DNA of 64,000 nucleotides from a candidate division KSB1 bacterium (lineage in GTDB: Bacteria > Zhuqueibacterota > Zhuqueibacteria > Residuimicrobiales > Krinioviventaceae). The stretch is from contig JAXHMJ010000001.1 in the NCBI GenBank assembly GCA_034521575.1, positions 451,282-515,281 of the forward strand, written 5' to 3'. This document shows, piece after piece, positions 8,928 through 58,012 of the stretch. Made by a program: the position numbers and the translations under genes. The notes beneath the pieces were generated by a model, which saw only the letters and a list, made by a program, of their open reading frames with translations, made no database searches and was not told where the DNA came from. Within the stretch, counting starts at the first letter, position 1. Each line of letters opens with the position of its first letter.

Positions 8928-8934
8928 AGTTCAT

Positions 8935-10239: not shown

Positions 10240-10282
10240 CCGTTCCTCTCTTTTTCCGAAATATAGTTTTTAATATCAGAGT

Positions 10283-14260: not shown

Positions 14261-14269
14261 GACTATTGC

Positions 14270-20000: not shown

Positions 20001-22245
20001 TACTGATTTCACTCAAGGAACTGTATTCAATTTTAATCAATCCGCATTGTTCCAGGTTGGGAGAGGTGATTCGCCATCCGCGCTTTAAATCCCTGTATAG
20101 ACGATACCCCAATACATTGCGAAATGCTTTTTCCGTATTTGTCTTTTCAAGATACTGAGCCCCGGGTTTACTGGCATAATATTCGAATGCAAAGTTCAGA
20201 GCATTGTAAACCGCTATAGTCAGTTCATCATGGTTAAGCCCTTGATCACCTTTGTTTACTATAGCTTGATAGAGTCCGGATCTCAGTACACCGATTTCGA
20301 TAAAATCATTGAAATGACCGGCTTGCAATGATGCATCCTGCCGGTTATCAGTAAAGCTTAACAGTTTACGGGCTGTCGGTTCCAAATTGGAATCGTTTTG
20401 TAAATAGCGTATGGAAGAAAGGCTCAATATGGTCGTTGCCGTACTTCTGCCCTCTGAAGACAATGTTGATAATTTTGCAAAATCACTTCGCTGCCGTATG
20501 CCATAGGAAACACCACAATTCAGGCAAAATTTGAATGGTGCCTGAATAAACTGAAATTTATTGCCTTTTTGATGAATATATCCATTTGGAGATATAGTTA
20601 TCGAATGGGGCAGATATTTTTTACGATTCTTTTTAATAACCTGTTGTTCATTTCTTTCTTCGATCCAGTCATCTGGAAGTCTTTTGACAACGTCGTCCGG
20701 ATCCTGCGGCCAGGTATTATTTTTGTTATAAAATAGAAAACCGATTTCATCATCATCAGTTTGTTGATCGTTTAATTCTCTTGCAATAATGCGTATCCCT
20801 TGATCATCCTGTTGTTTTCTTATCATGTAATATTCTTGCCCGCATTCACGACAAAATGCAACAGGGAGTAAAATACGGTTCCGGTCTCCGGGGACGAACT
20901 GTTGTTTGTTGATGGTGATATACCGGTTCTCATGATCCAGTGATACATACACCGCATCACCGCGGCTGATAAACTGGTGCAGGCGGAATGCAAAAGGTGG
21001 AAATCCATTTTCCGGGTTGGGTTCAGCAACGATAACCGGTCATTAATGCATCTTTGATTGCTTTGGCACATTTTTTTTCGGAAATACCTGCAGCTTTGCT
21101 CAATTCTCCGGCAGCTCCATTTTCTCCGCCAATACTTTTAGGTGTCGTTCGAATTAGTCGTCCACTTTTATCTTTTGTAACGCCAAACGTTGATTCAATC
21201 CAGATGGATAATGGCTCTTTAATAAATGACTCGAATTTTGGGGAAAGCTTATAATCGGGTTGTAAAAGCTGTTTTTTTAATGACTCTATCAAATTGGGAT
21301 CGTTGATCTTAATATCTGGTGTTACTCTTTTTACCGTTTCGCCGATTACATTTGACGGCTTGACCGTTGTTCCAAAAATTTGAGATGCAACCTCGGCTAT
21401 ATTTTTCTGCTGTTCACCAAAGTCTCCTTTTCCCGCCAGTGTTGCAGAGGTGCCTATACACTGTAAGTGATAAGCTGCAAAAGCCTCTCGAACCCTCCGC
21501 ACCAGAAACGAAACATCCGCACCTTGCCGTCCGCGATATGTGTGCAGCCAGTATCCAATACCAAATAATTCAAACCGGATGCTGCTTCAATTAGTTTTCT
21601 TTCGTCCAATCGGGTCAGAATGAGTTCCAGCATGACATAATTTGTCAGTAAAATGTCCGGCGGATTTTTTATGATTTCCCTTCTGGTTTCATCTGACTCT
21701 TGTCCCGTATACTTTGCAAACTTGACCGGATAATTATTTTTAGAATATCCCCATTGGATGAACTTTTCCAATTCCCCAAATTGACTATTGGCCAATGCAT
21801 TCATCGGGTAAACTATAATAGCTTTAATACCTTTACCCGATCCCTGTCTGACGATACTGTCAACAATGGGGATGATATAAGCGAGACTCTTGCCGGAACC
21901 TGTTCCAGTGGTTAATACATAAGAATCATTAGACTGTGCTGTTTTTATAGCCTGGGCTTGATGAAGATGAAGATGTAATGGTTTGCCTTTATCTTGTGCA
22001 TCAGATTTTTTTCTGAATATTCGTCTGCATTCCGGATGCAATACATTCTGATCAACCAGTTCATCCACCCATTCACCGGATTCGAATGAGGGATTGAGTT
22101 GAATCAAGGGTTCAGGCCACAGACTCCCTTGCTGTAGCTTTCGGCTCACATACTCATTGATCTGAGTATCCTGAATTTGGAGAAAACTATTTACGTATTC
22201 TTTATAATCCGTGATCAAATCATGGCGAAAACCAAATACATCCAT
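17095..22245 (-). pseudogene. DEAD helicase-DUF1998-nuclease-like fusion with two frameshifts (DISARM DrmA/DrmB- or Druantia DruE-like)
   Basis: About 1717 residues if the frames are joined. From ATG 22245 (MDVFGFRHDLITDYKEYV): Walker A TTGTGSGKSLAYIIP, then LVYPMNALANSQ. A frameshift at about 21545-21555 falls in the Walker B region: LVLD is followed by out-of-frame LHTYRGRQGADVSFLVRR. The next frame gives CIGTSATLAG until a stop at 21023. A second frameshift near 21036-21042 leads to AEPNPENGFPPFAFRLHQF and on to 17095. Helicase C (LGVDIAELNVVNLRNVPPTP...QRSGRAGRSGQ) and a DUF1998 Cys motif (C-x3-C-x2-C around EDCEAACYNCLMNYGN) follow. A C-terminal PD-(D/E)xK/DUF559-like tail (RPDFLYKENQVAVYIDGPYHD) ends it. 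Neither frameshift is in a homopolymer, so real inactivation is possible; the open frames on both sides argue that it is recent, or a sequencing error. Confidence 0.8.
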
Positions 22246-22330
22246 CCTGAACCCCGTCAATGAGAGTTTTCGATTTTACCCCAAATGACATGTAAAAATC
22301 AGCTGGTCATTTTAGCAAGCACTTTTTCTT

Positions 22331-23500: not shown

Positions 23501-23516
23501 TGGCATCAATATTGCT
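23501..23516 (+). promoter_or_regulatory. Sigma-54 (-24/-12) promoter of the cysteine-desulfurase operon
   Basis: TGGCATCAATATTGCT matches the consensus TGGCAC-N5-TTGCW at all but one specified position, with the invariant GG and GC at the required 10-bp spacing. The start codon is 34 bp downstream. A sigma-54-type AAA+ protein is encoded in the same operon (30678-32432), which raises confidence that the site is used. Confidence 0.75.
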
Positions 23517-23550
23517 TGTTACTCAAGCAATATTAAGAATAGGATAAAAG

Positions 23551-24693
23551 ATGTCGGATATTTATCTTGATAACAATGCGACCACCGAACCACTGCCTAC
23601 AGTAAAGGAAGCTGTTATCAACACATTCAAGGTTTTTGGCAATCCATCCAGCCCTCATGCAGCAGGTATTAAAGCCAGAAAGCTCATTGAAGAAGCAAGG
23701 GCGCATGTTGCTGATATGATCAAGGCTGAACCGCATGAGATTGTTTTCACTTCCGGCGGTACGGAGAGCATTGTCACAAGTTTTAAAAGCGCACTCCAGA
23801 GACATGATAAACAGAGACGATCTGTTATTGTTTCATCTGTGGAACATACAGCAGTGATGGAAACAGCGGCCGAATATAAAAATCATGGATACTCGATTGA
23901 TTATGTGCCTGTTGATTATAAAGGCCAAATCAGTATGGAAGCATTGGAAGAACGTTTAAAAGAAAATCCCAACGCGTTTGTGTCCATCATGTATGCCAAT
24001 AATGAAACCGGTGTTATTTTTCCGGTTGAAGAAATATCAAATTTGGCGAAAAAATATAATGCTGTTCTTCATATTGATGCTGTTCAGGCGGCCGGTAAAC
24101 TGCCTGTTGATATAAAAAAAATACAATGTGATTATTTGAGTCTCTCGGCTCACAAGTTTCATGGTCTCAAAGGAACGGGCGCACTGTATGTTAACAGGAA
24201 GGCGCACATCAATCCATTTTTATCCGGACATCAGGAATCTAAACGCCGCGGCGGCACAGAGAATGTACCGGGTATTGTTGCAATGGGTGTTGCAGCCAAA
24301 GAGGTTCATAATAATATTGATAAAGATATGCAGCACATGAAAACCTTGCGCGATCGGTTACAGAATAAATTGTTAAATGACATAAAAGGGTCTGTGGTAA
24401 ATGGAGACCCGCAGCAACGCATCTGTAATACGTTGAACCTGCAGGTCCCCTATAAGGATGCCGCGATGCTGGTTGAAGCTTTGAGTCATAAAGGTGTTTA
24501 TGTTTCCACCGGAGCCGCCTGTACAACGGGCGGAGAGCCGTCGCATGTGTTGGCCGCAATGGGACTTGAAGAAAGTGAGGTGAACAGATCATTAAGAATT
24601 AGTACAAGCAGGTTAACAAACGTATCTGATATTGAACAAGCGCTCGAAATAATGATAGAGACTGAAAGAAATAGTATAAATGTGTATAATTAA
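23551..24693 (+). CDS. Cysteine desulfurase, NifS/IscS type
   Basis: 380 residues, full length. It begins IYLDNNATT, the standard start of the family. The PLP Lys is in LSAHKFHGLKGTGAL (about 201), the PLP-contacting His in SSVEHTA (about 98), the Asp in HIDAVQAAGK (about 175), and the catalytic Cys in STGAACTTGGEPSH (about 322). The enzyme takes sulfur from cysteine as a persulfide. The GTAC-type CTTG loop rather than IscS-type SS suggests a specialised paralogue. No scaffold (IscU) or sulfur-acceptor gene follows. It heads the sigma-54 operon, which is unusual for a housekeeping enzyme; the sulfur acceptor in this system is unknown. Confidence 0.9.
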   Translation: MSDIYLDNNATTEPLPTVKEAVINTFKVFGNPSSPHAAGIKARKLIEEARAHVADMIKAEPHEIVFTSGGTESIVTSFKSALQRHDKQRRSVIVSSVEHTAVMETAAEYKNHGYSIDYVPVDYKGQISMEALEERLKENPNAFVSIMYANNETGVIFPVEEISNLAKKYNAVLHIDAVQAAGKLPVDIKKIQCDYLSLSAHKFHGLKGTGALYVNRKAHINPFLSGHQESKRRGGTENVPGIVAMGVAAKEVHNNIDKDMQHMKTLRDRLQNKLLNDIKGSVVNGDPQQRICNTLNLQVPYKDAAMLVEALSHKGVYVSTGAACTTGGEPSHVLAAMGLEESEVNRSLRISTSRLTNVSDIEQALEIMIETERNSINVYN

Positions 24694-24708
24694 CAAAAGG
24701 TGTGTAAA

Positions 24709-26112
24709 ATGACTCTTGGTACTATTGATATTATTGGTATAATTTTATATTTTTCAGTTCTAGGAATTTTCGCCTACTTTACAAGACGAACGAAATCTTT
24801 TTCTGAATTTTCTATAGCTAAGCATTCTGTACCGGCTGCAATGATATTTGCCAGTATAGCGGCTACCTATGTTGGCCCAGGATTCGCTGTTGGTATGACA
24901 AGTAAAGGGTATAGTGCAGGTTATGCTTTCTATTTTTTTACATTTGCATATGTGTTGCAAACCATAATCGTTGGACTTTTTATAGCACCAAGACTCACTG
25001 AAAAGTTCAGGGATTGCTATACGCTTGGTGATGTAATGGAAAAATGTTATGGCAAATTTGCACATTTATTAGCTGGAATAGTATCTGTAGGATTATGTAT
25101 TGGATTTAGTGGTATTATGGCTAAAATTGGTGGTTCGATGTTACAGGCTATTACTGGTTGGGATTTAATGTTATGTATCGTTATAATAACTTTTATGACA
25201 GGTTTATATACGATGACCGGAGGAATTCGTGCATCTATTGCTACGGATGCTTTGCAGTTTGGATTATTCAGTATAATCATACCTGTCATGTTGATTCTTG
25301 CCTTCATAAAAATGCCGGAATCAGCTGATGTTGTGATGACAAATGCTAAAGAATTAACAGCTAATAGTTTTAAGAGTTTCACTATTCTCCAAATTATTGC
25401 CATTGTAATATCCTTTCTTCTGGGTGAAACACTTATCCCCCCTTATGCAAATCGTGCACTCGCTTCAAAATCAACGATTGATTCAAAAAAAGGATTTTCT
25501 TTTGCAGGTGCTTTTGGTGTAATCTGGTTAGCAATTGTTATTACATTAGGAATAATAGGGCATAGTTTTGTTCCTGAAGGGACAAAACCTGATGATGTAT
25601 TTCTGGTTATAGGTAGCATATTGATGCCACCAGGAGCATTTGGCTTACTACTTGCTTCTTTGATTGCTATTGTCATGTCTAGTCAGGACTCTGTAATTAA
25701 TGCCGGTTCGGTATCTATTGTAAGAGATATTATTGGCTTTAGGAAACAGCCTAGTGAGAAAAGTTCACTATTTTTAGGACGAGCAGGTACCGTATTAATA
25801 GTTGTCATTGCAACCGTTGTGGCTCGCTATGCACCGTCAATTATAGACGGTCTTTTAATTTGTTATTCTATTTGGGCACCGGCACTTTTATTACCCTTAA
25901 TACTCGGACTGTTTTTAAAACGGACTGTTCATCTTGCGGGTTGGTTATCAATGCTCGGTGGTGGTATTACTTCGATACTCTGGCAAACGGTATGGAACGA
26001 GCCTGAAGGCATTCCGGCGATAATAGCAGGACTATTAATTGGCGGTATGACTTATTTTATAGGATACATGCTTGGTTCAAGAAAAACAACATTATCTGGA
26101 GGTGCAAAATGA
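24709..26112 (+). CDS. Sodium:solute symporter family (SSF) transporter
   Basis: 467 residues from ATG 24709, chosen because AAGG lies 8 bases upstream; an in-frame GTG at 24700 is less likely. About 13 membrane helices are visible. The unwound-helix signature (ATYVGPGFAVGM) and LLASLIAIVMSSQDSVINAGSVSIVRDI in helix 8-9 are typical of SSF members. The substrate cannot be read from sequence; relatives carry sugars, amino acids or carboxylates. It follows the cysteine desulfurase by 15 bp and ends overlapping a 38-codon membrane peptide (ATGA). It could import cysteine-related substrates, or act as a membrane sensor in this signalling operon. Confidence 0.85.
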   Translation: MTLGTIDIIGIILYFSVLGIFAYFTRRTKSFSEFSIAKHSVPAAMIFASIAATYVGPGFAVGMTSKGYSAGYAFYFFTFAYVLQTIIVGLFIAPRLTEKFRDCYTLGDVMEKCYGKFAHLLAGIVSVGLCIGFSGIMAKIGGSMLQAITGWDLMLCIVIITFMTGLYTMTGGIRASIATDALQFGLFSIIIPVMLILAFIKMPESADVVMTNAKELTANSFKSFTILQIIAIVISFLLGETLIPPYANRALASKSTIDSKKGFSFAGAFGVIWLAIVITLGIIGHSFVPEGTKPDDVFLVIGSILMPPGAFGLLLASLIAIVMSSQDSVINAGSVSIVRDIIGFRKQPSEKSSLFLGRAGTVLIVVIATVVARYAPSIIDGLLICYSIWAPALLLPLILGLFLKRTVHLAGWLSMLGGGITSILWQTVWNEPEGIPAIIAGLLIGGMTYFIGYMLGSRKTTLSGGAK

Positions 26113-26225
26113 TTTTTATTTTTAGTATAATTTTCCCATTGATCTCAATATTATGCGGCATTTTCGTACTTTATAATGTAATGAAATTTGTTAAAGATAT
26201 ATATCAAGAAAATTACAGGAGTTAG
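26109..26225 (+). CDS. 38-residue single-helix membrane peptide
   Basis: MIFIFSIIFPLISILCGIFVLYNVMKFVKDIYQENYRS: one membrane helix and a basic tail. It overlaps the symporter stop by ATGA, and its last codons contain the AGGAG ribosome site for the next gene. Coupling on both sides and the clean hydrophobic composition support a real gene. Small subunits like this often accompany SSF transporters. Confidence 0.6.
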   Translation: MIFIFSIIFPLISILCGIFVLYNVMKFVKDIYQENYRS

Positions 26226-26228
26226 TTA

Positions 26229-27092
26229 TTGCATACAGAAAGCTATTTCGCAAATGATGAGAAAAATATTCTGGACATCATCAAATCTAATTTAGCAAGC
26301 TGCCAATCAATTGCTATTCAAGCCGGACATTTTCTTGTCTATTATGATCATACAGAAGATCTGCTATTACCTGGTATTGCAGAAGAATTAAAAAATCCAC
26401 GATATGAAATTGTAAAAGAAGAAATTGGTTATTTCCCTTTATTATCGTGGAAATTTGGTTTAGATTTAATTGAAAAAATAAATGCCCAGAATAAACATGT
26501 TCTAGTATTGGCTAATGATTGGCAATATATACCTAAAAATATTGATCGTATGCGATTCTATGATAAATTTTCCAGCTTACCGAACTCTTATAATGATTAC
26601 CTGGAGAGCAAGCAATCTTTAAACTTGCTAAAACCAGTAATGGATAATAATGATTTAGAGACCGGTGATTTTTTCAGCGAACAGACTTTGAGAAATGAAT
26701 ATGGTCGTCATATCAAAAAATTAGTAAAAAATAAACAATTGCCTGAAAGTGCAAATATAGTAAAAAATAATTCCGGTCTAACATGTAATATTATTAATTC
26801 AATTGGTCAACGAGAAGAAATATATTGTTCAAACAAACGTGAAAATTGCAGGCAAGAGGTTGCAGAATTGTTGTATCAAATAAAAAAGATGACAGGGTGT
26901 GATACAATAATTAATATTTATCCAAAGGCATGTAAAGAATTTGTTCATGCTGGGACAATTTTATTTGGTAAAATATTTTGCACAAAAGATACGGTTAAAA
27001 TAATAAACATTGGGTGCAATTCTATCCAAGTAGAAGATAGAGCCGATTTGCTGAAAAATGCTTTGGTGCAATTATATAAAATTAACATTTAA
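26229..27092 (+). CDS. Unknown 287-aa protein with TTG start
   Basis: The start is TTG at 26229, 8 bases after AGGAG; no ATG is suitably placed. Family not recognised. The N-terminal part (SIAIQAGHFLVYYDHTEDLLLPGIAEEL...HVLVLANDWQYIP) has alternating strands and helices like a Rossmann-type fold. The C-terminal part has several Cys (CSNKRENC, GCDTI, KACKEF, FCTKD, IGCN), which could bind metal or accept persulfide sulfur from the desulfurase two genes upstream. That is a speculation based on proximity and Cys count. It is followed by the methyltransferase gene 19 bp on. Confidence 0.55.
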   Translation: MHTESYFANDEKNILDIIKSNLASCQSIAIQAGHFLVYYDHTEDLLLPGIAEELKNPRYEIVKEEIGYFPLLSWKFGLDLIEKINAQNKHVLVLANDWQYIPKNIDRMRFYDKFSSLPNSYNDYLESKQSLNLLKPVMDNNDLETGDFFSEQTLRNEYGRHIKKLVKNKQLPESANIVKNNSGLTCNIINSIGQREEIYCSNKRENCRQEVAELLYQIKKMTGCDTIINIYPKACKEFVHAGTILFGKIFCTKDTVKIINIGCNSIQVEDRADLLKNALVQLYKINI

Positions 27093-27111: not shown

Positions 27112-29493
27112 ATGGAAAGATTAGAATACAACATAAAGGCTTATGACAAGTTATATCGAAATGAATCTGGTTATTTTCCTGGTTTTCATGATAAACAAAT
27201 GTCGGGTATTAAAGAAATATACGAGAAAGTTTTTCAAAAAAATTTAATTTTTGAATCAATTGACACAATTGTGGATGTGGGTTGTGGTAAGGGCGAGTTG
27301 CTAATTTACCTCTTTGAAAAGCACCAACAGAAAAACTATATTGGTATCGATCCATCTCAAGAGGCGATTGACAGTGCAAAAAAGAAAATTAAAAGTATTA
27401 ATTCAAATGGTAAAATATTATTTTTGAATTTGGCCGCTGAAGGTATATTTAGTAATCCTGAGTTTTCTAGTGCAATAATTGGAACGTCTTTATTGATTAG
27501 TATGGGGCATTCAATACCACATTTTGAGGAAAAGTGGTTGGCAGAGTATGTTGATAAATTTAAACCCAAATATGTATATATTGATTTTTATCATAATTTC
27601 GGGGAAATAATTGATCAGCTCAACAATGATGAAAAAATAAAAATCGAACCTAAAAATTTTGAAAATGAAGAAATAACAGCTTTGTTCACTGAAATGAAAA
27701 ATACAGGTATTATCAATCGAGGCATATTGATAAATAAGGGAGGTTCTGAAACAAGAATTATTGAAACTCAACAAAATTTTAAAAAACCTGAATATTACAA
27801 AGAAGTTATTTCAAAAAAAGATTATTTGTCAATCGTGACCGATGAAATATATTATCTTGGATATGGTCCTATGAAAGGATTTCTGTTTTGTTATGAATCA
27901 GATATTGGAAGAATTATAAATGATAAATATTATGAATTTATTTATGGGCAAATTATTTCAAAAATTATGGAAAAAGACTATATCAAGGCTTTGTTTGAAG
28001 TAACAAAGATGAAATGTGAAGCAGTAATTCTACCTTTTGATAAAAGGTTGACATTTGCAAAATATTTTTCAATTGATGCAAGTAAAGATGATATCCCTAA
28101 TGAACAGATGCTTGTTGATTCTATTTATAATACTCAGGAAAAATATCCAACTGCGCATGGATTATTCATGACTTTTCTTGATAAAGTAAGCGTATCAAAT
28201 ATAATACCACTCACGGAATGGAAAGAAAAACTAATAAATAAAGTCGATAAATGTTTTGGAGATAATATAGAAAAACCATTTTTTAAAAAATGCTCAAAGG
28301 GAAATAAGCTTGATAAGGAAATTCCATTTTTTATTATTCCTTTTTATTTCGGTCAATTACCACTTTTTGGTCTTGTTTTACAAGTTGATAATGTACTAAA
28401 TAAAGAGTTTCTTTCTGAAGCAGTATTTTATGCATTTTTTAATGATGTATACAATTTAATAAATATTGAGATTGGCAAATTATTTAGAGATAATGAAATA
28501 GTTGGTAATTTTGTGCTTAGTAGTATAAATGCACTTGCTAATGCTGAGGGAACAAAAAATCGAGATGATGCAATAAGTGATTTTAAACGGCATTTTGCAT
28601 ATGCCAGAGAAAAACCTTGGAAATCATGGATCATTACATTACCAACTGTGGAGATCAAGAAAGTCAAAAGAATAAATGCAGAAAATGACGAATTTATCCA
28701 GTTGGTCGAATCTTGGCTGGAGAGGGGAAAAATGGATGAATATGATATTGTTAGTGAGTTTTTTAAAAGGTTGGATTTTTTTTCGGGGGGGAATCATGAT
28801 GAGTGTTGTAAGGCGCATTGTGATATTTTAGCAAATGCTGGTAATTTGGAATCAAATGTTTTACTTAATACTATTGTCAATACAAATGTCTTTAAGTGGT
28901 TAAAAAATAAAGTAAATTTTATAATCAATAACAAAAACACTAGCCTTTCGACAAATAAAGAATGTCAAGAGTGTTTTCAGTTATTAAAAAGTGTTTTTTG
29001 CAAGTGCCAAGAAAATAAGGGGAATGATTTTCGGTTTAGATTGCTTAGATTAAAAGGTGTACTTGAGATTAAATTGATGGACAAACAAACATCAATTAAA
29101 TATGATTATTTCCCAGATGTAACACGTAAAGATGAGAGTTGGTGGACAGGTGGATGTAAACTTAAGGATCCCTTTATTCAATTAGCTAATGACAAGACCG
29201 ATAAAATAATAGATTTACTTGAAAATGGTTTTAAAAACGATAGTATAAAAAATATCACTTTAGGGAAAAACAAAGATGAATATTTTTTAAAAATTAAATT
29301 AGTTAAAATATTTAATAATACTGCAATGGGACGGGGGCAGGATTACAATAACGTCAAAAAGTGTTTAAAAATTTTGGACTCTAATTATAAAGATCAAGCT
29401 TTCCAGGAATTAACTATAAAATTTGAAATAAATGATGATGGAAAAATGAGTGATTATTTTATATTAGCATATAGAAAAGAACAGGAATATTAA
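27112..29493 (+). CDS. SAM methyltransferase fused to GAF-like sensor region
   Basis: 793 residues. Residues 45-165 are a class I SAM methyltransferase: IVDVGCGKGELLIYLF (motif I, about 53-68) and YIGIDPS (motif II). Region 320-460 (TAHGLFMTFLDK...FFIIPFYFGQLPLFGLVLQVDNV...INIEIGKLF) has the strand pattern of a GAF domain. The last 130 residues contain ITLGKNKDEYFLKIKLVK and AMGRGQDYNNVKKCLKIL, which resemble a decayed histidine-kinase ATPase. This is inference. The operon encodes three receiver-like domains but no canonical kinase, so this protein may supply the signal. The substrate of the methylase is unknown. Base composition is strongly AT-rich, like the next two genes. Confidence 0.6.
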   Translation: MERLEYNIKAYDKLYRNESGYFPGFHDKQMSGIKEIYEKVFQKNLIFESIDTIVDVGCGKGELLIYLFEKHQQKNYIGIDPSQEAIDSAKKKIKSINSNGKILFLNLAAEGIFSNPEFSSAIIGTSLLISMGHSIPHFEEKWLAEYVDKFKPKYVYIDFYHNFGEIIDQLNNDEKIKIEPKNFENEEITALFTEMKNTGIINRGILINKGGSETRIIETQQNFKKPEYYKEVISKKDYLSIVTDEIYYLGYGPMKGFLFCYESDIGRIINDKYYEFIYGQIISKIMEKDYIKALFEVTKMKCEAVILPFDKRLTFAKYFSIDASKDDIPNEQMLVDSIYNTQEKYPTAHGLFMTFLDKVSVSNIIPLTEWKEKLINKVDKCFGDNIEKPFFKKCSKGNKLDKEIPFFIIPFYFGQLPLFGLVLQVDNVLNKEFLSEAVFYAFFNDVYNLINIEIGKLFRDNEIVGNFVLSSINALANAEGTKNRDDAISDFKRHFAYAREKPWKSWIITLPTVEIKKVKRINAENDEFIQLVESWLERGKMDEYDIVSEFFKRLDFFSGGNHDECCKAHCDILANAGNLESNVLLNTIVNTNVFKWLKNKVNFIINNKNTSLSTNKECQECFQLLKSVFCKCQENKGNDFRFRLLRLKGVLEIKLMDKQTSIKYDYFPDVTRKDESWWTGGCKLKDPFIQLANDKTDKIIDLLENGFKNDSIKNITLGKNKDEYFLKIKLVKIFNNTAMGRGQDYNNVKKCLKILDSNYKDQAFQELTIKFEINDDGKMSDYFILAYRKEQEY

Positions 29494-29494
29494 A

Positions 29495-30202
29495 ATGAAA
29501 ATGTACTACTATGATTCTACTGAAAGAAAAGAAATATTTAAGTGTTTGGATGTTATTGAATTGATGCCCAAAGCTAATATTGATCGAAATGATATTTTGT
29601 TTCTCCATTGGAATGATTTTGTAGTGATAAATAAAATATTTATGAATTTAATTGTTAGCTCTCCATGCCATTTGATATTTTACTCTGGTGACTCCCCTGA
29701 TACTTTTCAAGAAAGGTTCAAAAAAGCGATAGAGGAACCAAATGGTAGAATTAAAGAAGATTTAATTAATCATCAAAAAGATGATGTTTTTTATTTACCT
29801 ATCATTTTTCCAAGAGAAGATGATGGAATAAAAAAAAATCTGCAAAAATTTATCGAGAAATGCAAAGAAAAATTTATTGATCCAGAAAAATATTTTACAA
29901 TGGGAAAATTTTCAGAGGAATATCTAGTAGATATTTTATCAAAACTGGTTATTTTATCACATGTGCCTGTTGTAAATCATGAAAATATTTACCTAAAATT
30001 AAAAAGTAAAAAATTAGAGATAAAAGGATTATTAAAAAGCCAGAGTTGGGAAAAAATATTCAAAAATGCAGATAAAGAAGAACTTTTTGATGCTTTGAAT
30101 AACCTAGATGAAGAAAATATTGATCTTGATAATTTACCCAATCCTATTAACGAATTTGTTCAAGAATGGTCGTCAATAATTGAAAAACATGTTGAAAAGT
30201 AA
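29495..30202 (+). CDS. Unknown 235-aa protein
   Basis: It starts one base after the preceding stop. The first 75 residues (DVIELMPKANIDRNDILFLHWNDFVVINKIFMNLIVSSPCHLIFYSGDSP) alternate hydrophobic strands and helices, somewhat like a receiver without the phospho-acceptor site. The remainder is charged and helical. I recognise no family. Its tight spacing in the signalling operon suggests a partner of the neighbouring receiver/kinase-like proteins. Confidence 0.5.
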   Translation: MKMYYYDSTERKEIFKCLDVIELMPKANIDRNDILFLHWNDFVVINKIFMNLIVSSPCHLIFYSGDSPDTFQERFKKAIEEPNGRIKEDLINHQKDDVFYLPIIFPREDDGIKKNLQKFIEKCKEKFIDPEKYFTMGKFSEEYLVDILSKLVILSHVPVVNHENIYLKLKSKKLEIKGLLKSQSWEKIFKNADKEELFDALNNLDEENIDLDNLPNPINEFVQEWSSIIEKHVEK

Positions 30203-30674
30203 AAAGAACCTTGAATGGGAAAATAAACGTGCTTATCTAAATCATGATATATTAGGTAACCAGCTTAGAAATGAAGTTCAAAGTCTCTTGTATCAAAAAA
30301 AATATGATGAAATTGATCGCTTGGAATCCTGGCTTTCACTTGAAGATGAATACCGAAAGTTTATTAAAAATGCTATAGAATACCTGCCTCCAACGGATAT
30401 TGTTGACTCTTGCCTTTTCAACGGTCTCAATCAAGAAGAAAAATACTTTTATAAAGAAATCATTTATGAGATATATATGCGTACCACAAAATTGGATGAA
30501 AGTGTCAAAAAGTTGGATAAATTATTAACAGAAGCAATTTTAAGCATCAAAGAATTTATAAATACCGAAAATTCAAAAAGAACTGATGAAATGTTACTTC
30601 AAGTTCAAAAAACAATAGATTCTCTTAGTACAGAGATATCAAAACTTCCTCATGTAAAAAAATCAACAAATTAG
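30189..30674 (+). CDS. Small helical protein with SpoB/DHp-like HD motif
   Basis: 161 residues from ATG 30189; a TTG 9 bases upstream is an alternative. It overlaps the previous gene by 14 bp. Residues 17-45 (AYLNHDILGNQLRNEVQSLLYQKKYDEIDRLESWL) resemble the dimerisation/phospho-acceptor helix of SpoB and of CitA/DcuS-type kinases, whose pattern is RHDxxNhLq.iqgLl..gkyeea. The rest is helical coiled coil. If the His is phosphorylated, the protein would be a phosphotransferase or the detached half of a split kinase. The similarity is short and needs a profile search. Confidence 0.45.
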   Translation: MLKSKKNLEWENKRAYLNHDILGNQLRNEVQSLLYQKKYDEIDRLESWLSLEDEYRKFIKNAIEYLPPTDIVDSCLFNGLNQEEKYFYKEIIYEIYMRTTKLDESVKKLDKLLTEAILSIKEFINTENSKRTDEMLLQVQKTIDSLSTEISKLPHVKKSTN

Positions 30675-30677
30675 ATA

Positions 30678-32432
30678 ATGAATACTTTGCCCAAAATATT
30701 AATCATAGACGATCAGTTTGGCCGATGTGGTCTCGGCAAACAATTTAAAGAATATGTTGATCCACGGATTTTTAAATCCTATAAAGCTGACAGGAAAAAT
30801 CTTTGTTATAATTACGGCCTGATTGATATAACAGGAGATTCAAATGCAATAGAACGAAATTTAGGGATTGCGGAAACAATTTTCTGTCCCGGGCAAAAAT
30901 GGAATAATACGGAATCAAAGATTGAAAATGACTTGGGTCAGGTGCTTGAATTTATTAGTAATGGATGGCCATTTAAAAAAGGAAATCGTTGGTCTCTTAT
31001 TTTACTTGATCTGGCATTTGTTCAGGGAGAATTAAATCATTTCGGTGATCCCCAGGAACGCACCATGTTCGGCAGGGATGTTATTCTTCCTCGTTTGAAA
31101 AAAGAGTTTGGAGAGGATTTACCCATAGTCATTCTCTCCAGCACGCCGAAAGAAGAAAATAACCCCCTGATCCGAAAGGCGGGCGCGCTTGATTTCATTC
31201 AACGGATTCCCGGAGCCGGAACTCCGCCTGATGAAGCGCGAAAAAGATTGCAAGACGTCTTGTATCATCACGGTCTGCTTGAGGATGAATCGGGCACGAT
31301 TATCGGCAAGTCTCTGTCTGTCTTGAAAATGCTGCGACAGGCCAGGCGTGCGGCTTCAGCAGGAAAGACCATGCTTTTATATGGGGAAACAGGAACAGGC
31401 AAAAATCTCCTGGCTCAATATATTCACACGATATCTGAGCGAAAACAAGCGCCGTTTGAAATTTTCAATGCATCCAACTGTCCTGCTAATTTACAGGAAG
31501 ACACCTTGTTCGGGCACTGGAAGGGCGCTTTTACAGATGCCAAACAAGAAAAGGCGGGAATGTGGGAGCGCTGTAATGGCGGCACTGTTTTTATTGATGA
31601 AGTGGCCTGTCTGGATCCGAGTGTCCAGAATAAATTGATGGAGCCGATTGAATCGCAAAAAGTCCGGCGTTTGGGGCATGCTCCGGACGGGATGCAATCC
31701 ATAGATATTGATGTCATGACGATCCTGGCCACCAATCGGGATCCGTATTATCTAAAGGAAACAGGCGTACTCAAGCAGGATTTTTTAAACCGTATCAGTG
31801 CCAACGTCATTGATATACCGCCGCTGCGTGAGCATAAAGAGGATATCCCTGACCTGGTACATCATCTGAGCCGCAGTATGTTTCCAGATTGGCACGGCAC
31901 GTTTTATAACCAAGCCATCCGTAAAATCAGAGATCATGACTGGACAGAAGGCAATATACGGGAATTAAGAAATGTGATATTCGCTGCGATCAAGGATAAT
32001 CCGGGACAGGATATTACACAGAGCGATGTGCATTTTTTTGAAAAGGATATCCATAACAATAGACCATCAGTGGATGTATTGAGTCATGAACAACTATGGG
32101 AGGAATTTACAGCTGTATTACTGAAAAATCCTGAAGATATGACACAACGGGAACGGAAACTGTATCGTAAAAAGTTCAACGGGGTTTTTACGGATCTGCT
32201 TGCCTATATACTCAATTGGTCATTGTTATTGAACAACGACGCCACCAATACAGCACGTTTTCTCTCTGGCTGTTCAGAAGATATTATGGACAGCAGCGCA
32301 GCCCATCAGTTTTTGACAAAATATTTAAAACTTGATACAAAACGAAAAAATGTATTAAGAAAATTCTTGCAATATCCAGCTTCTGAACAAGAAATTATTA
32401 AAAAAATAATCGAGAAATTCAATGGCGAGTAG
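30678..32432 (+). CDS. Receiver-sigma-54-type AAA+ regulator lacking a Fis-type DNA-binding domain
   Basis: 584 residues. Residues 1-190 are a long receiver-like domain: ILIIDDQFG acidic pair, LILLDLAF acceptor Asp, IVILSSTP switch Ser/Thr. The AAA+ core follows: Walker A LYGETGTGKN (about 235), the sigma-54 contact loop as GAFTDA (about 283; GAFTGA is canonical), Walker B GGTVFIDEVA (about 301), and sensor/arginine finger FLNRIS (about 370). The C-terminal 150 residues are helical but lack the usual Fis helix-turn-helix. Two sigma-54-like promoters lie in this island, so it probably activates its own operon and the tubulin operon, perhaps from solution or with a partner that binds DNA. Confidence 0.85.
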   Translation: MNTLPKILIIDDQFGRCGLGKQFKEYVDPRIFKSYKADRKNLCYNYGLIDITGDSNAIERNLGIAETIFCPGQKWNNTESKIENDLGQVLEFISNGWPFKKGNRWSLILLDLAFVQGELNHFGDPQERTMFGRDVILPRLKKEFGEDLPIVILSSTPKEENNPLIRKAGALDFIQRIPGAGTPPDEARKRLQDVLYHHGLLEDESGTIIGKSLSVLKMLRQARRAASAGKTMLLYGETGTGKNLLAQYIHTISERKQAPFEIFNASNCPANLQEDTLFGHWKGAFTDAKQEKAGMWERCNGGTVFIDEVACLDPSVQNKLMEPIESQKVRRLGHAPDGMQSIDIDVMTILATNRDPYYLKETGVLKQDFLNRISANVIDIPPLREHKEDIPDLVHHLSRSMFPDWHGTFYNQAIRKIRDHDWTEGNIRELRNVIFAAIKDNPGQDITQSDVHFFEKDIHNNRPSVDVLSHEQLWEEFTAVLLKNPEDMTQRERKLYRKKFNGVFTDLLAYILNWSLLLNNDATNTARFLSGCSEDIMDSSAAHQFLTKYLKLDTKRKNVLRKFLQYPASEQEIIKKIIEKFNGE

Positions 32433-34116
32433 TGAAAAAATTGATATATGGATAGCATCGGAAGATGATTTGTTTTGTTCTTTTTTAGAAATAATTATTG
32501 GGTTATTTGATATAAAAGATCTTGATGTTCATAAACTAAATAAAAATAGTAATGATAGAGATACCTTGATTAAGGTGTTTCATGAAAAAAATCAATTAAA
32601 ACCTACTCAAATAATCATACAGCATATCCCATACATTAATTTTAAAGATAGTAATAGAAATAAAAAAGAAACTTTAAAGCAGTTAACTACTGATATAAAC
32701 AATCCTCTCTTTTATCGATATTCTTTTAAACGATACAGAAAAGAAATTGGCAAAAATAAAAAAAAGAACATTCATATAGCCTATAAAAATTCATGCCATC
32801 CAATTCTCTATTTGACCAATCAAAGGATTACAGAAGCAGAACAGGAAAGAAAAGGCGCGCTTTTCCTTGACTGTTCCATTTGGAATCGCTGCATCTGGCT
32901 TCAAGACCCCCTTTTTCTTGTCCGGTTTTACAACAGATTATGCGATTATAAGACATGGATTGACGAAAAACTATACGAGCGTACGGTTGCACTCGAAGTC
33001 CTGGATTACCATATCCGCATGCTTGAAGCCCAACGGATTGAAGATATCGATCCCGGAAATCGAGGCGGCCATGGAGAATCGCTCGGGAAAAAATTGGGGG
33101 GGTGGCATAGCGAAACAAAGTATAATGACAAGTTTATTAAAGAATTTGGTTCCAAAATTTATCATCAACGTCGTTTCCTTGTGGTCGATGATTTTGGTCA
33201 GAATGAATTGCGTAGAATAGATAAAGGCGGAAACGGCAATTTCAATAAGCAAAATGGAGTAAACAAGAAAAAGGTTGTTAAATTTTCTAAAGGGTATTAT
33301 GTAGATGCAGCACTGAATAAGATATATAAAGAGAAACGAGCAGAGTTTGAAATCGCATTTGCAGCAAACCTGAGCACTGCGAATAAAGATTTGAAAAGAC
33401 AAAATGAAGATTTTTATGATATTATTCTGCTCGATTATTTGCTTCACAAGGACGCAAATGAGGATGAATTGGGAAGTCAATTAATCTGGAAATTGATAGT
33501 AGGAACCCAGTCTTATCATAAACTGGATAATCGATTCTGGATATTTCCCATTTCATCCTGGTCTTTTGCGATGCTGGCAGAAATGGAATCCGGAAAGACA
33601 GATATTGTAAACAGCGTATATTTTTTGGATTCAGGAGCTGACCCCGTAACCATGCCGTGTCTTTTTCGATACAAGCTGGCAAAATTTTTAGATCAACAAG
33701 TTGAAGATGTGAATAAATATTATAAACGATTTGAATCCATTATTCCGGATGACTTTGCGGAAATTGACGAGTCGAACAAGCTAAAAGATATATCAAAATC
33801 CTGTCTGAGAGAAGTCGTGCGGCTGCAGGCCAAGATTGATGGCCTGAAACAGAACGAGAAAGACGGAAGTCTTTTTGCAAAATCGTTTCTCAAGAATTCC
33901 CCATCAAAATATCAGGCCCAACACCTCGATCATTTGCAGCATTTGCTTTACCTGGTCTCTTATGGATCCGGACTCGAATGGTCTGAAATGTGGGAAGAAT
34001 GCCGATATATAAAAAATAGAGTTTATGAAATGGGTTTTGATATAAAAAAGATTTCTCTCCTGATTAAAAATATTGAGAAATACATCAATCAATTACATCA
34101 TAATTATGATATTTGA
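32422..34116 (+). CDS. Double receiver-like protein
   Basis: 564 residues, overlapping the AAA+ gene by 11 bp. Residues about 6-130 (IDIWIASEDDLFCSFLEIIIGL...IIIQHIPYI) look like a degraded receiver. About 248-400 look like a second: RRFLVVDDFGQNE, then YDIILLDYLLH (acceptor Asp about 337), then FWIFPISSWS (switch Ser). A roughly 75-residue insertion lies between strand 1 and strand 3 of the second. The C-terminal 150 residues are helical. Likely role: phospho-dependent partner of the AAA+ regulator. No output domain is recognisable. Confidence 0.6.
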   Translation: MASSEKIDIWIASEDDLFCSFLEIIIGLFDIKDLDVHKLNKNSNDRDTLIKVFHEKNQLKPTQIIIQHIPYINFKDSNRNKKETLKQLTTDINNPLFYRYSFKRYRKEIGKNKKKNIHIAYKNSCHPILYLTNQRITEAEQERKGALFLDCSIWNRCIWLQDPLFLVRFYNRLCDYKTWIDEKLYERTVALEVLDYHIRMLEAQRIEDIDPGNRGGHGESLGKKLGGWHSETKYNDKFIKEFGSKIYHQRRFLVVDDFGQNELRRIDKGGNGNFNKQNGVNKKKVVKFSKGYYVDAALNKIYKEKRAEFEIAFAANLSTANKDLKRQNEDFYDIILLDYLLHKDANEDELGSQLIWKLIVGTQSYHKLDNRFWIFPISSWSFAMLAEMESGKTDIVNSVYFLDSGADPVTMPCLFRYKLAKFLDQQVEDVNKYYKRFESIIPDDFAEIDESNKLKDISKSCLREVVRLQAKIDGLKQNEKDGSLFAKSFLKNSPSKYQAQHLDHLQHLLYLVSYGSGLEWSEMWEECRYIKNRVYEMGFDIKKISLLIKNIEKYINQLHHNYDI

Positions 34117-34118
34117 AT

Positions 34119-34889
34119 ATGACATCAGGTAAATTTTTTATTCTCGATCCGGATTCCACTTTGCATGAAGGCCAGGCCATATTTCGGTATCTGCCGGTGA
34201 CGAAAAAGACTGCTGATCCTTCGTCCAGAAACTGTCCATGTGATAAAAATGACCAAACCTGTCCGGATTTGCCTGTTTATGTCGTAATCAAACCCAGGGC
34301 AATTGATTTTTATTATCATGGTATAGATCCCGGCACTGATAATCATGTACATATTTGTCTTTTACATTTGCCGTTATCATCCAATTTGGCCATTAAAGAT
34401 AATCTTACAAGTGTTTTAAAAAGTATTTATAATCAATCTTATAAATTAGGGGATTGTTATCAAATTAAATATCAATACAATGAACTGGCCTATTGGAATT
34501 TACATGCATTTTCAGCGGATAAATTCTCTAAATGTAAACTAAAGCAACCCCTTAATACAGCGAGTGTCATCTCTGGAATAGAAGACAATATTTCATTTTG
34601 TAAACTCCTTCTGGATTTTATCTTTGATTTTGAGCATTCCCCGGTATTTCAAAATGCTCCAAGCTATGAGGAGATAGAAATTCACCTCAAGGAAAATTAT
34701 TATTTTTCCGCAATTGCAGCCAAGGCACAATACTATTATGATCGGGAGAGCTACCGTGAGGGTAAGCGCGACCGTGATTCACGGGTCATTCCAGCCAGCA
34801 AACTCGCCGACAGTGAAATTCAGTGGCTGAACATTCTCAGGCAGAAAGAAGCGAGTGATCATTTCAGGAACGACACAAGCTGTTCATGA
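34119..34889 (+). CDS. Unknown 256-aa protein with CPC cysteine cluster
   Basis: ATG 34119 is preferred; TTG 34113 overlaps the previous stop and cannot be excluded. Residues about 38-50 carry NCPCDKNDQTCPD, a compact Cys cluster that could bind metal or be redox-active. The rest (VYVVIKPRAIDFYYHGIDPG, ...YYDRESYREGKRDRDSRV) matches nothing I know. The 3' end overlaps the GTG of the next gene by 35 bp, so they are co-translated. Confidence 0.5.
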   Translation: MTSGKFFILDPDSTLHEGQAIFRYLPVTKKTADPSSRNCPCDKNDQTCPDLPVYVVIKPRAIDFYYHGIDPGTDNHVHICLLHLPLSSNLAIKDNLTSVLKSIYNQSYKLGDCYQIKYQYNELAYWNLHAFSADKFSKCKLKQPLNTASVISGIEDNISFCKLLLDFIFDFEHSPVFQNAPSYEEIEIHLKENYYFSAIAAKAQYYYDRESYREGKRDRDSRVIPASKLADSEIQWLNILRQKEASDHFRNDTSCS

Positions 34890-36093
34890 GCAAGTTGAGA
34901 CAGAATATCGGTCTGTACTCTTTGGTCATAAAACGGATAAATTCAACCGCTTTCAATGGCGTGAACAGCTTCAAAGAACGCGGAGCAAAGGGCCGAATTA
35001 TGATGAAAAAAATCGCCGGATACTGAGGGAATCGGCCAAATGGTTTTTGCGCCGTTATTCCATTTGGAACTCTTTGCAATGCGTTTTATCATACAAGGAA
35101 CGTCAGAAATATACTTTTTATTTTCTTTTTTTGGTTTTTATTTTCGCCGTTCCGGCAGTACTGCTGAATATCTGTACTGATACAGAGTCGACATTCATCG
35201 AAAAAATGTTTACCTATTTTACTTACGGCACGGCTGCTCTCATTCCATTTGCTCTATGTTTTGTTATTCATTTTCGAAAATTTGTGCTGCCTGTTTTTGG
35301 TTTGTTTATGCCCCGGTTGATCATGGCCATATCCTCGGCTTGGTTGCTATTTGTTTCCACAGAAGAACTCGTCAAGACGTCTTTCTATGTTGGTGCCTGG
35401 AAAAGCCCTGGGTTTTTTTAATGTTGCTTCCCATTTTGATTTTTGTGGCCCTGGAAGTCAGGAATCTGGCGCCGGATGTAAAGAAATGGCGGATTTGGAG
35501 CCGGGTTATAGGAGTGGTGTGCATCGGATTGTTTTATTCCCTGGTGACGGGTCTGTTTTTTACTCATTTCATCAGCCGCGATATCATAGCCTATTCAGGG
35601 TACATTGAAACGTTCTGGGAAAGAAATCTGAACAGCAAAGACTATCAAACCCGTTTTATTCCTTGTGAAACAGATTCGGCTTATTCAGTTGCAGCGGATA
35701 TTTTAACGGATCGAGGTCAGGGAGATAAAAAACGATTTTACAGATCTTTATACTGAATATCGTAAACTATGTCCGGATTCATTGAAAGCGACGAAACTCG
35801 CACGATTCCATCGTGACGCCATAGAAAACGGCATCCCTGTACCAAGGGAATTATTATTAAAGATTATCAAAACCGATCGGTTTGACAGAAGAAAACTGGT
35901 TGACAATTTGACTGAATTCCGGGTTCAAAGCGGGGGAGGCCATAGGATTGCCATGAGAGTTCCTTTTTCCAAAAAGGGATGGTCTCTCTATGTATTTCCC
36001 GGTATGCTGCTGTTCCGGGCGATTTTTGCGTTGTTTGTGGGAATGTTCATTGAATTGATTTTTGAAGATAAACCGATAACAGAACCGTTATAG
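34855..36093 (+). pseudogene. Multi-helix membrane protein broken by two homopolymer frameshifts
   Basis: Three frames join into one protein of about 412 residues. Frame 1 (GTG 34855) runs to a stop at 35419-35421 within a T7 run. One extra T gives GFFLMLLPILIFVALEVRNL and continues. The second frame ends at 35756, but removing one A from the A6 run at about 35731 gives KNDFTDLYTEYRKLCPDSLKATKLARF and runs to 36093. The protein has a basic cytosolic N-terminus, about six membrane helices (FYFLFLVFIFAVPAVLL onward) and a C-terminal helix (MLLFRAIFALFVGMFIELIF). Function unknown. Both breaks are homopolymer indels, so the gene may be intact in the organism. Confidence 0.6.
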
Positions 36094-36750: not shown

Positions 36751-36834
36751 ATGCCTGTTTTGAAAACCAGAATCAAGGGTGAGAGACCACCGGGAGTCAT
36801 CTATGAACTACGACCGCATCCGAATCGCCAGTGA
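36751..36834 (+). CDS. Possible 27-codon leader peptide overlapping the M48 start
   Basis: ATG 36751 follows AGAGGAG with good spacing and reads MPVLKTRIKGERPPGVIYEL... to a stop at 36834, overlapping the first 32 bases of the M48 gene in another frame. The ribosome site is stronger than that of the M48 gene itself. It could be a regulatory leader or a translational coupler, or a true N-terminus split by a further indel. Confidence 0.35.
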   Translation: MPVLKTRIKGERPPGVIYELRPHPNRQ

Positions 36835-38068
36835 AAAGCAGAGCAGTCGGGAATTGTACGATCTGTTCGAAGTGGATATTATCAAACAGATCCTCGGGGA
36901 AGGCAAGGTTGAGAATCAAAAAGATTATGTTCGTGCCGTGTTTGAAGGCCGGGATTTCAAGATCACGGATAAAATGGCGCCCAAACTTTATCAAATCTGT
37001 AAAGAAGTTCGGGATGCGCTGGAGTTTGAGGAACCGATTGACTTTTTTGTCACCAATGCGCCCGACATCAACGCGGCCGCGATTTATCGGCTGGAAGAGG
37101 AACATCGGCATTTGATCTCTTTGAACTCGGGTCTGATCGAACGCTTTAATGATCAGGAACTGCGTTTTGTCATCGGACATGAAATCGGTCATCTGATCAG
37201 CCGCAGCGCCGAGCTGGAACGCATCATTCAGTTTGTGTTTCCCGATGAAAACCGCATGCCGCTGGTATTGAAAAACAAAATTTACCTGTGGAGAAAACTG
37301 GCCGAGTTATCGGCGGACCGCTATGGCTATATTGCGGCGCCGGATCTGCAGGTCTGTGTGTCGAATTTCTTCAAACTGTCCTCGGGTCTGGATACCACAC
37401 GCATCGCCTTTGACCTGCAATCCTATTTTGCTGAAACCGAAAAGATATTGCAGAATTACACCTATTCTTCATCCATTCAGGATACCTTTCATCCCATCAA
37501 TCCCGTGCGCATCAAAGCGCTCAAATTGTTCAGTGAATCGAAATTGTATCATGAGCTGGATCATAACTCTGAGAAGCCGGATGAAGACCTGAGCGGCGAG
37601 ATCGAGAAGCTAATTGACTTGCTCATGGTCATGGATGATTCCGAAATCGGCGCGCATCGGAAACATTATCTGGCTTCGGGCGGATTGTTGATTGCCGGAC
37701 TGGATGGTGAACTGGATCAACGCGAAGTGGATCGCATTGTTCATTCCCTGGCCTCGTTTACCATGTTTCCCAGCCGCTTTCTCAGCGCGATTATCGAATC
37801 GGAAAAGGTGCAGGACATATTTACTCAATCCTGTCAGAATGTATTAAAACTCAATCCCGGTGAACGGCACGGCATGTTTTATTACCTGGTCGAGATTGCC
37901 ATTTCAGATCATGACCTGCTGCAAAAGGAAATTGATGTGTTGTACGATATCGGAGAAAAGCTGTTCGGGTTTTCACGCATAGAAATCGCGCAAATGATCG
38001 CGGAAAAGGTGCATCGGGAATTTGTGCCGAGGTTCTTTTTGCATGGCAATGCGTCAGGACAGGAATGA
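36803..38068 (+). CDS. M48-type metallopeptidase with C-terminal TerB-like domain
   Basis: 421 residues from ATG 36803 (GGGAG 6 bases upstream; the earlier in-frame codon at 36779 lacks a ribosome site). Zinc site: FVIGHEIGHLIS (HExxH, about 122-126) with the third ligand Glu in LAELSADRYGYIA (about 168). No membrane helix, unlike HtpX, so it is cytosolic. Residues about 285-415 (LASGGLLIAGLDGELDQREVDRI...LYDIGEKLFGFSRIEIAQMIAE) match the TerB/tellurite-resistance helical fold with its acidic GLDGELDxxE motif. M48-TerB fusions sit in predicted stress or conflict operons. Here it leads the vWA-tubulin operon and may process one of those proteins. Confidence 0.8.
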   Translation: MNYDRIRIASEKQSSRELYDLFEVDIIKQILGEGKVENQKDYVRAVFEGRDFKITDKMAPKLYQICKEVRDALEFEEPIDFFVTNAPDINAAAIYRLEEEHRHLISLNSGLIERFNDQELRFVIGHEIGHLISRSAELERIIQFVFPDENRMPLVLKNKIYLWRKLAELSADRYGYIAAPDLQVCVSNFFKLSSGLDTTRIAFDLQSYFAETEKILQNYTYSSSIQDTFHPINPVRIKALKLFSESKLYHELDHNSEKPDEDLSGEIEKLIDLLMVMDDSEIGAHRKHYLASGGLLIAGLDGELDQREVDRIVHSLASFTMFPSRFLSAIIESEKVQDIFTQSCQNVLKLNPGERHGMFYYLVEIAISDHDLLQKEIDVLYDIGEKLFGFSRIEIAQMIAEKVHREFVPRFFLHGNASGQE

Positions 38069-38114
38069 TTCAGAATCGATAGAATGAATTGAAACGCAAA
38101 CCGCGGGAGGTATT

Positions 38115-40882
38115 ATGTGTTTTTTGGGGAAAAGCGATTCAGTGGTCAAATTATTTTTAATTGTTGTTTTAGTATTCTTGAATACCGCCACCGCCCAGTT
38201 CACCCAACAGCAAGATGAAAAAGGCATGGATTTGATCATTCTACTGGACCGGTCCGGCAGTATGCCTGTCAGCGATGAAGATGGATTGGCGGTTGCCGCG
38301 GTTAAAGCTGTCGCCAGTCAGATGGCCTTTCTGCAGGGCAGGAACCGGTTGTTGTTACTGCCGTTCGGCACCCAGGTGCATTATGTACCGCAAAAACAGG
38401 ACGCACAGGAGGGTTATTTTACCAATGATTTCAAAGGATTTATGGAAGAGTTGGATGAATTCCAGAAACGTTATCCGCTAAAAGGGGGATACACTGATCT
38501 CGAAATGGCCATGTTGAAAGCTCGGGAAATCTTTGAAACACAATCTTCAAATGATCAGACAAAACATGTGATCGTCATCACGGATGGCATGCCTATTCCC
38601 GATTTTGAGCGATATCCTTCTCTGAGCTCAGACCAGATGAAAAAAAAGTCCCGTGACAATATTCTGAAAATTGCGAAATTATACAGCAGACGTCGCATTC
38701 GCATGACCTTGTTCGGTCTCTTTAGCAAAGAGAAACCGAATGATAAATTGCTCGCCACGGCTTATATGAATAAGATTAAAAATCAGTGCGGCGGCAGTTT
38801 TGTCGAGGTTGAATCAGCCAGTGATATTATCAGCAATGTACTGGAATTTTTTCCGGAACCTCCCGATATCCTGGATCTGTATCAGGACCCGTGGAACAAA
38901 AGCATCAGCATCCCGCAAGAGTTTGCGATTCAAGAGTCTCAGGTTTATATTGTCATGGGACGGAATCAGGTCAGGCAATTCCCTGATTTGAACATAACCG
39001 GAAACCCGACAACGGTTTATGATAACAACGGCAATATTGCTTTTATTGCCGTTCGCACGCGTGATCAGCAAATCCTCAAACCGTCAAAATTGCCTTTTAC
39101 ACCGGATATATTTATCAAAGGGCGAACGCGGCTTGAACCCGCATTGAACATTACACCCAGACGCGAAGAGTATGCCGCCGGGGACCGGATCAAGTTTGTC
39201 GCTGAACTAATCGATCCGGACACTCAGGAATCCGTGCCGGTTCAGCGGATTAGCGGTGATTTTATCAGTCCCGAATACTCGAGTCGAATTTATTTCGACA
39301 GTGACAGCGCCGAGTTTACCATACCCGACGAAGCGGAAAATTCAACCGCCAAATTGCGGCTGGATTATTTCCTCAGTGACCACATCAGTCTGACTCAGAT
39401 GCTGTACTGGCCGATTGCATCGGTGCACTATAATCGCTTTATGATTGATCCGGAACTGACATTCATAAATTTCGGTGAACTGGGCAATCGTCTGGAAACC
39501 ACATACAATCTGAGTCAATACAAACTGACTCTGGCCGAACCCAACCTTCGGCGTATCGAGCCCAAGGTAGAATTCATGTTTGACGAAGGGCTGCTGGCCT
39601 CGGACTGGTTTCCGCAGGATTACAAGCTCCCCGCGATCAATCGTTCCCGGGGAGAACAGATACGCTCTGTTCCGCTTAAGGATATCAGCATCAGCGTGCC
39701 GAATTACCTGCCGCCGGAATTCAAGGATAAAAAATACACCGGTATGCTGCGCTTTTACGCGGATAACGTCGAGGAACTGCTGATCCCGTTTTCACTGATT
39801 TTCAATCGGCCGGACTGGGATCTGCCGTATCAGTATAAAAACGAACGTACCGATGATATTGTGAATGAAAACAACCTGTTATTCATTAATTTTTTCAACA
39901 ATATATTCCGCAGTAAAAAACTGTTTTTACCGCTGCGTCACAATTCCGCGTATGCGCAGGCGGTGAGCGTGCGCGTGGACAGTACCCTGAGTCACGGTGA
40001 TGAATACATCGAAACCAAAAAACTGTCCCTGACCGGCGATCCGGAAAATGACCTGGAGCTGGAGGCGGGTAAAACGAGCCAGTATACACTGCGTCTCAAC
40101 CGCAACGGTAAAATTCCCTCGCAGACCTATGAGGCGCAGATCAGACTGACCGGCGCCCGCTTACCGGCTGTGACCATACCGGTGAATATTTCAGTGGCCG
40201 GCTCCTTTGCGAGTTTGAGAAATCCCGCGTTTTATCTGGTTATCCTGTTGTTTCTGGTGCTGGTTGTGTTAGTCATTCGGCAAAAAAAACAAAATGCCAT
40301 CCACACATTCAAAAATCAAAACTCGATGACCCTGCCGGTAAAAGTGACCTCAGATACGCAGAAAAGGGGGAAGACGATCTAATTTGTCCGTTTAAAGGCA
40401 TTCGCAGTGATGATGTCATGTTTGACTTGTCCGGTGGTTATCCGGTAATCAGAAATGTTCAGCGTCCTGATGTCAAAATTGAACGTTATGGTGAATTAAT
40501 GCCGGTTCAGGGAGAAACAGAATTACAAGACGGAGATAAGATTCAGCTATTAAAGCAGAGTAAATCCACCATTACCCTGTCCATTTCGCGAATCGAATTG
40601 CCGGATGAACGACCTGACGGCAAAGCACGGATTTTGTTTAACGTCAATATTGACGGACCGCGGGAAATGAAATTACCGGGAACGGTGCTGAACCGGATCA
40701 TTTTCCCTGCCGTCATTTTTCTGGGAGCGGATTTGCTGCTCGGGTCCTATGCCAATGTGCCCGCAGAGATCATTCTTGCTGTTCTGTGCAGTGTTTCAGT
40801 GCTAACCTTTATGGCAGGTCTGAGAAAATTGGGCGTATCTGCTTTATTGCTGTTGATCGTATTATCTCTTGTTCTCATCTAA
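38115..40882 (+). pseudogene. Membrane vWA-domain protein, one homopolymer frameshift near the C-terminus
   Basis: Signal peptide 1-28 (VVKLFLIVVLVFLNTATA). The vWA domain at about 37-240 has a complete MIDAS: DRSGSM (about 45), Thr in GGYTDLEMA (about 125) and Asp in VITDGMP (about 156). A large beta-rich extracytoplasmic region follows, then a membrane helix at about 700-722 (FYLVILLFLVLVVLVI). The frame stops at 40382. One extra G in the G5 run at about 40365 continues as KRGEDDLICPFKGIRSDDVMFDLSGGYPVIRN, and the second part ends at 40882 with three more membrane helices. The joined protein is about 922 residues. The first part alone may also be functional. Probable membrane partner of the downstream tubulin-like GTPase. 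Confidence 0.75.
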
Positions 40883-40891
40883 GGAGGAATT

Positions 40892-58000: not shown

Positions 58001-58012
58001 AGGAAGAATGAT

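Follow-up and report, generated by a model that had tools for sequence, protein, structure and literature searches.

What drives the receiver domains of an operon that carries no recognisable histidine kinase? The question is raised by a group of genes from a candidate division KSB1 bacterium, within the 64,000-nucleotide stretch of DNA analysed here (the window). Five intact, nearly contiguous plus-strand genes, B to F, occupy 27112–34116, and the open reading frames of the original prediction were all confirmed together with their coordinates. They are listed below with their upstream neighbours and with gene G, which follows them.

23551-24693: cysteine desulfurase, followed by a sodium:solute symporter and then gene A (unit 23551-27092)
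26229-27092: gene A, upstream of B
27112..29493, plus strand: gene B, 793 aa, a SAM methyltransferase at the N-terminus and, at the C-terminus, a candidate ATPase half of a split kinase
29495..30202, plus strand: gene C, 235 aa, no family match
30189..30674, plus strand: gene D, 161 aa, start ATG at 30189, helical, candidate phosphoacceptor
30678..32432, plus strand: gene E, 584 aa, a receiver with an insert (1-205), a sigma54-activator AAA+ domain (208-452) and a tail (453-584)
32422..34116, plus strand: gene F, 564 aa, an N-terminal domain (1-190), a receiver-like domain (about 245-440) and a C-terminal region without assignment
34113..34889, plus strand: gene G, 258 aa, overlapping F by 4 bases, no family match

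The anatomy of this operon is real, and a split-kinase mechanism for it is a candidate only. The spacing from B to G ranges from +3 to −14 bases (gaps of one to three bases; overlaps of 14, 11 and 4 bases), a layout that makes this one transcription unit, probably with G included. The G+C content is 26-30% in A to D, 42% in E and 35% in F, which makes the operon a patchwork whose A to D portion is unlike the flanks. F has no relative in 82 genomes of its own phylum, in viral contigs, on plasmids or in phages. This lack of relatives within the phylum, together with a G+C content of B to D far below that of the flanks, indicates that the operon was acquired. B to G are whole, and genes near the operon are split across frames at 17095-22260, 34855-36093 and 40892-43905 (a helicase in three fragments, a membrane protein and a Tubulin_2 protein), which reflects either assembly indels or decay.

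E is the only well-assigned member of the five intact operon genes. Its AAA+ domain is of the sigma54-activator type (PF00158, Sigma54_activat, 3.7e-43 in Pfam), it is followed by a lid domain (PF25601, 6e-9), and the closest PADLOC family is RtcR_PspF2 (2e-60, 203 bits, residues 188-452). The Walker A lysine is K242 and the Walker B residues are D307 and E308. The loop at residues 283-288 reads GAFTDA in place of GAFTGA; it is probably not broken, as 5 of the 20 local activators of this type carry the same variant. The C-terminal part of the arginine-finger motif is kept, while the first Arg of FRxDLxxRL is a Lys. The tail (residues 452-584) gave no match to an HTH family at E<10. Sigma54 itself is encoded in the genome (2.2e-60). 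Sigma54-like sites across the window are no commoner than in shuffled sequence, and a target promoter for E was not found; a tie between the operon and sigma54 promoters in the window was dropped because the site count does not exceed chance.

Two receiver-like domains of the operon are supported. The original prediction had counted three; those of E (1-205) and F (about 245-440) find support, and the third, at F 1-190, scores no better than shuffled sequence. Because the Pfam Response_reg model matches neither E nor F, a receiver model was built from local NtrC receivers. Compared with these by hhalign, E 1-205 scored 29.6 against a shuffle maximum of 22.0, with residues 103-180 aligned. In a second test, with hmmsearch, the stretch after the first strand could be excised, equally in real and shuffled sequences. 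The E receiver carries an insert of ~70 residues, and with this insert excised it outscored 100 of 100 shuffles. The F domain (245-440) reached 10.6 bits against a shuffle maximum of 6.9, with none of 100 shuffles as good, and F 1-190 gave no receiver signal (54/100 shuffles scored equally high). Gene C was no better than shuffles in either receiver test (24/100 as good in the second).

The residues of these receivers, as read from the sequence, are an acidic pair (D11 and D12 in E, D256 and D257 in F), an acceptor Asp (D111 and D338) and a Ser (S154/S155 and S378/S379). The conserved receiver Lys is missing from both, with Arg176 in E and none found in F, and classical phosphorylation-dependent switching is therefore doubtful. 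The loss of this Lys raises a first explanation, in which E and F bear pseudo-receivers that respond when one of B, C, D or F binds and employ no phosphoryl chemistry. The absence of a receiver signal in the N-terminal domain of F also fits this explanation, but both proteins retain the acidic pair, the acceptor Asp and the Ser, which would not be expected after an ancient loss of phosphorylation, and switching of this kind is judged somewhat unlikely.

The claim that no recognisable kinase lies nearby was borne out. The region from 26 to 36 kb contains no HATPase or HisKA match in Pfam or NCBIfam, and none of the proteins A to G matches such a profile in either collection. The nearest kinase gene, 24 kb off, encodes an ordinary hybrid kinase (57959-60373), and HATPase_c matches number 54 genome-wide. 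These kinases suggest a second explanation, that E and F are orphan response regulators phosphorylated by an ordinary kinase from elsewhere, and that B, C and D have other functions. Many receiver-bearing sigma54 activators are not adjacent to their own kinase, which was counted in favour, as was the clear methyltransferase domain of B (residues about 47-112, 1e-8 in Pfam), whose activity would then be its role. A tightly packed acquired operon, however, tends to carry its own signal source, and the missing Lys of both receivers counts against phosphorylation by an ordinary kinase as well. Orphan regulators are accordingly a tentative answer, a real possibility that falls short of an even chance.

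A third explanation keeps the kinase within the operon but splits it: a degenerate Bergerat ATPase at the C-terminus of B would phosphorylate His19 of D, from which the phosphoryl group would move on to D111 of E and perhaps to D338 of F. The middle region of B has a fold without assignment, and its C-terminus matches no family. Picked by eye, the C-terminus contains an N-box-like string, LLENGFKN (702-709), a strand pair and then a G2-like string, GRGQDYNNVKKCL (740-752), an order that resembles an N-box followed by a LytS-type G2 box. The second string aligns with the LytS G2 box, GxGIGLxNVRxRL, and a weak LytS-profile alignment falls exactly on it. No G1 box (DxGxG) lies between the two strings and the GL of GxGxGL is absent (GRGQDY), which renders ATP binding by B doubtful and weighs against a split kinase. 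As a single sequence, the C-terminus of B scored no higher than shuffles against profiles of ordinary HATPase_c (30 domains of the same genome), DesK/NarX-type (16 domains) and LytS-type proteins (29 for the kinase core and 21 for the ATPase domain). A regular-expression score for the B motifs (reached by 2/200000 shuffles) was dropped as proof, since the pattern had been tailored to B and recovers only 3 of 51 real ATPase domains.

The AlphaFold model of the B C-terminus, from a single sequence, is poor (pLDDT 40); its predicted order of helix-EE-helix-EE-helix-E would be compatible with a catalytic domain. Foldseek searches with this low-confidence model gave a best E of 0.018, and DesK structures, which would suit a split kinase, appeared at E about 0.3-0.6 amid unrelated matches. 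VIA-align gave a top Z of 7.0 (FtsK motor and others), below the meaningful level, with no kinase among the 50 matches listed. These fold searches were counted neither for nor against the kinase reading.

D supplies the putative phosphoacceptor. The original prediction had described a SpoB-like HD helix in this protein; the HD motif is present, as HDILGNQL at residues 19-26 (His codon at 30243-30245), but it appears to resemble HisKA_3 (HDxLGxxL) more than Spo0B. Alignment of D with the HisKA_3 profile falls on this string, but 6 of 80 shuffles are as good. A comparable string occurs in 298/200000 shuffles, under a pattern chosen post hoc. The AlphaFold model, from a single sequence, is all helical and poor (pLDDT 54). 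The HisKA_3-like motif and the presence of B and D in the same operon argue for a split kinase; the profile scores, indistinguishable from shuffles for B and not clearly above them for D, the low-confidence models of both proteins and the choice of both sets of motifs with the sequence in view argue against it. On balance a split kinase is unlikely. Its fullest form would be a kinase of a new kind, carried on a mobile module next to a defence island: a Bergerat domain that lacks G1 and is fused to a methyltransferase (B), and a free HisKA_3-like helical protein (D), would together drive the receiver-AAA+ protein E and the atypical receiver F. This form is improbable.

Beyond its methyltransferase, B has no homologue in Desulfobacterota genomes (395 + 277), on plasmids or in viral contigs, and the sole Desulfobacterota match, in the same genomes, was set aside as covering the methyltransferase part only. 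D has no homologue on plasmids or in viral contigs. A plasmid match to C (E 0.7), to a protein from a Citrobacter sugar locus, was judged to be chance, and G has no Pfam or other family match and no relative on plasmids. C matches no family in Pfam, NCBIfam, PADLOC or PHROG. No full-length relative of E was found in the 82 phylum genomes, the 395 Desulfobacterota genomes or plasmids; the best matches in these genomes (up to 175 bits), and likewise on plasmids, cover no more than the AAA+ domain and the end of the receiver. The E receiver alone has no match on plasmids. The only match to E in genome contigs, from a Geobacter MAG, was rejected as a common NtrC-type gene with ordinary kinases around it.

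The best description of B to F, and probably of G with them, is a signalling operon gained by horizontal transfer and centred on E, a sigma54-activator-type AAA+ ATPase gated by its receiver; this reading is given an even chance of being right. In this operon the insert-bearing receiver would hold E off until phosphorylation, or the binding of operon partners (F, B to D), switches it on. F has an atypical receiver and lacks a recognisable output domain, and may be a partner or a competitor of E. Because E has no recognisable HTH, it would act from solution, either on the sigma54 polymerase in the manner of FlgR or by remodelling another target. Receiver-bearing sigma54 activators that lack an HTH or DNA-binding part exist (FlgR-type), and they act on the sigma54 polymerase from solution. 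The phosphoryl source, if there is one, would be either B together with D or a conventional kinase, of which the cell has many.

The genes around the operon have affiliations of their own. A relative of gene A (29% identity) occurs on Priestia plasmids in a locus rich in ComX and ACP genes, where it likewise adjoins a cysteine desulfurase. This shared neighbour places gene A with the cysteine desulfurase upstream, and a role for it in the relay was rejected for the same reason; cysteine desulfurase, symporter and gene A are possibly a small biosynthetic unit. At 23501-23534, 34 bases upstream of the cysteine desulfurase ATG, lies a sigma54-like site, TGGCATCAATATTGCT, which overlaps a perfect 11-base inverted repeat, AATATTGCTTG-TTACT-CAAGCAATATT. 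It is the only exact match to a sigma54 site in the window, where near-matches are not above chance in number.

Further upstream, at 4811-22260 on the minus strand, is a defence island that combines parts of Dpd, DISARM and Druantia. It encodes a DpdE/DrmD-like SNF2 helicase (827 bits to the DpdE model), a DrmMI/type IIG-like methyltransferase, a DruE-like helicase, a PLD-domain protein and two unknown genes. A NYN-domain protein at 22743-23324 matches the candidate defence family HEC-09 (2e-12). The region downstream (36779-43905) encodes an M48 metallopeptidase that carries a fused TerB-like domain, a vWA (von Willebrand) protein that looks secreted, and a protein of the Tubulin_2/FtsZl1 type. 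Few genomes of the phylum have FtsZl1 (2/82), and its pairing with vWA is known (PMC2875224). Finally, a tyrosine-recombinase-like protein on the minus strand at 46205-47674, recognised by direct reading of its residues (HTFRHSFATHLL...LGHRDVRTTMIYTQ), would fit a mobile region.

As a test case the operon is small and clear, and identifying its activator would show whether degenerate, Lys-less receivers still accept phosphoryl groups. A split kinase, if true, would be a natural separation of HisKA and HATPase outside the CheA family, which is possible in principle and for which switch-like output has been predicted (PMC3591291).

Known split kinases are CheA3-CheA4 of Rhodobacter sphaeroides and an engineered split EnvZ (PMC3591291). 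With these, the candidate pair of B and D would share the distribution of ATPase and phosphoacceptor over two proteins; the known halves, in contrast, are clear family members, whereas B and D are candidate halves by their motifs, and the putative acceptor of D looks HisKA_3-like, not Hpt-like. Spo0B and ChpT are helical His proteins that feed receivers and have no kinase activity of their own, and D was likened to the first of them in the original prediction. D appears to differ from Spo0B in its HDxLG motif, and no remnant ATPase domain was detected in it. For E the closest AAA+ domain is that of the RtcR/PspF2 CARF-AAA-HTH regulators (PADLOC PDLC01995), although E has a receiver where these have a CARF sensor, and the match ends before the HTH. 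Compared with NtrC/PspF-type sigma54 activators, E has an insert of about 70 residues and an Arg for Lys in its receiver, a Lys for the first Arg of FRxDLxxRL and no HTH found, and it is accompanied by F and the orphan genes B to D. Despite these differences, E and the NtrC/PspF-type activators share the receiver, AAA+ and lid domains in the same order, together with Walker A and B, a GAFT loop (in E the GAFTDA variant) and the C-terminal part of the arginine finger.
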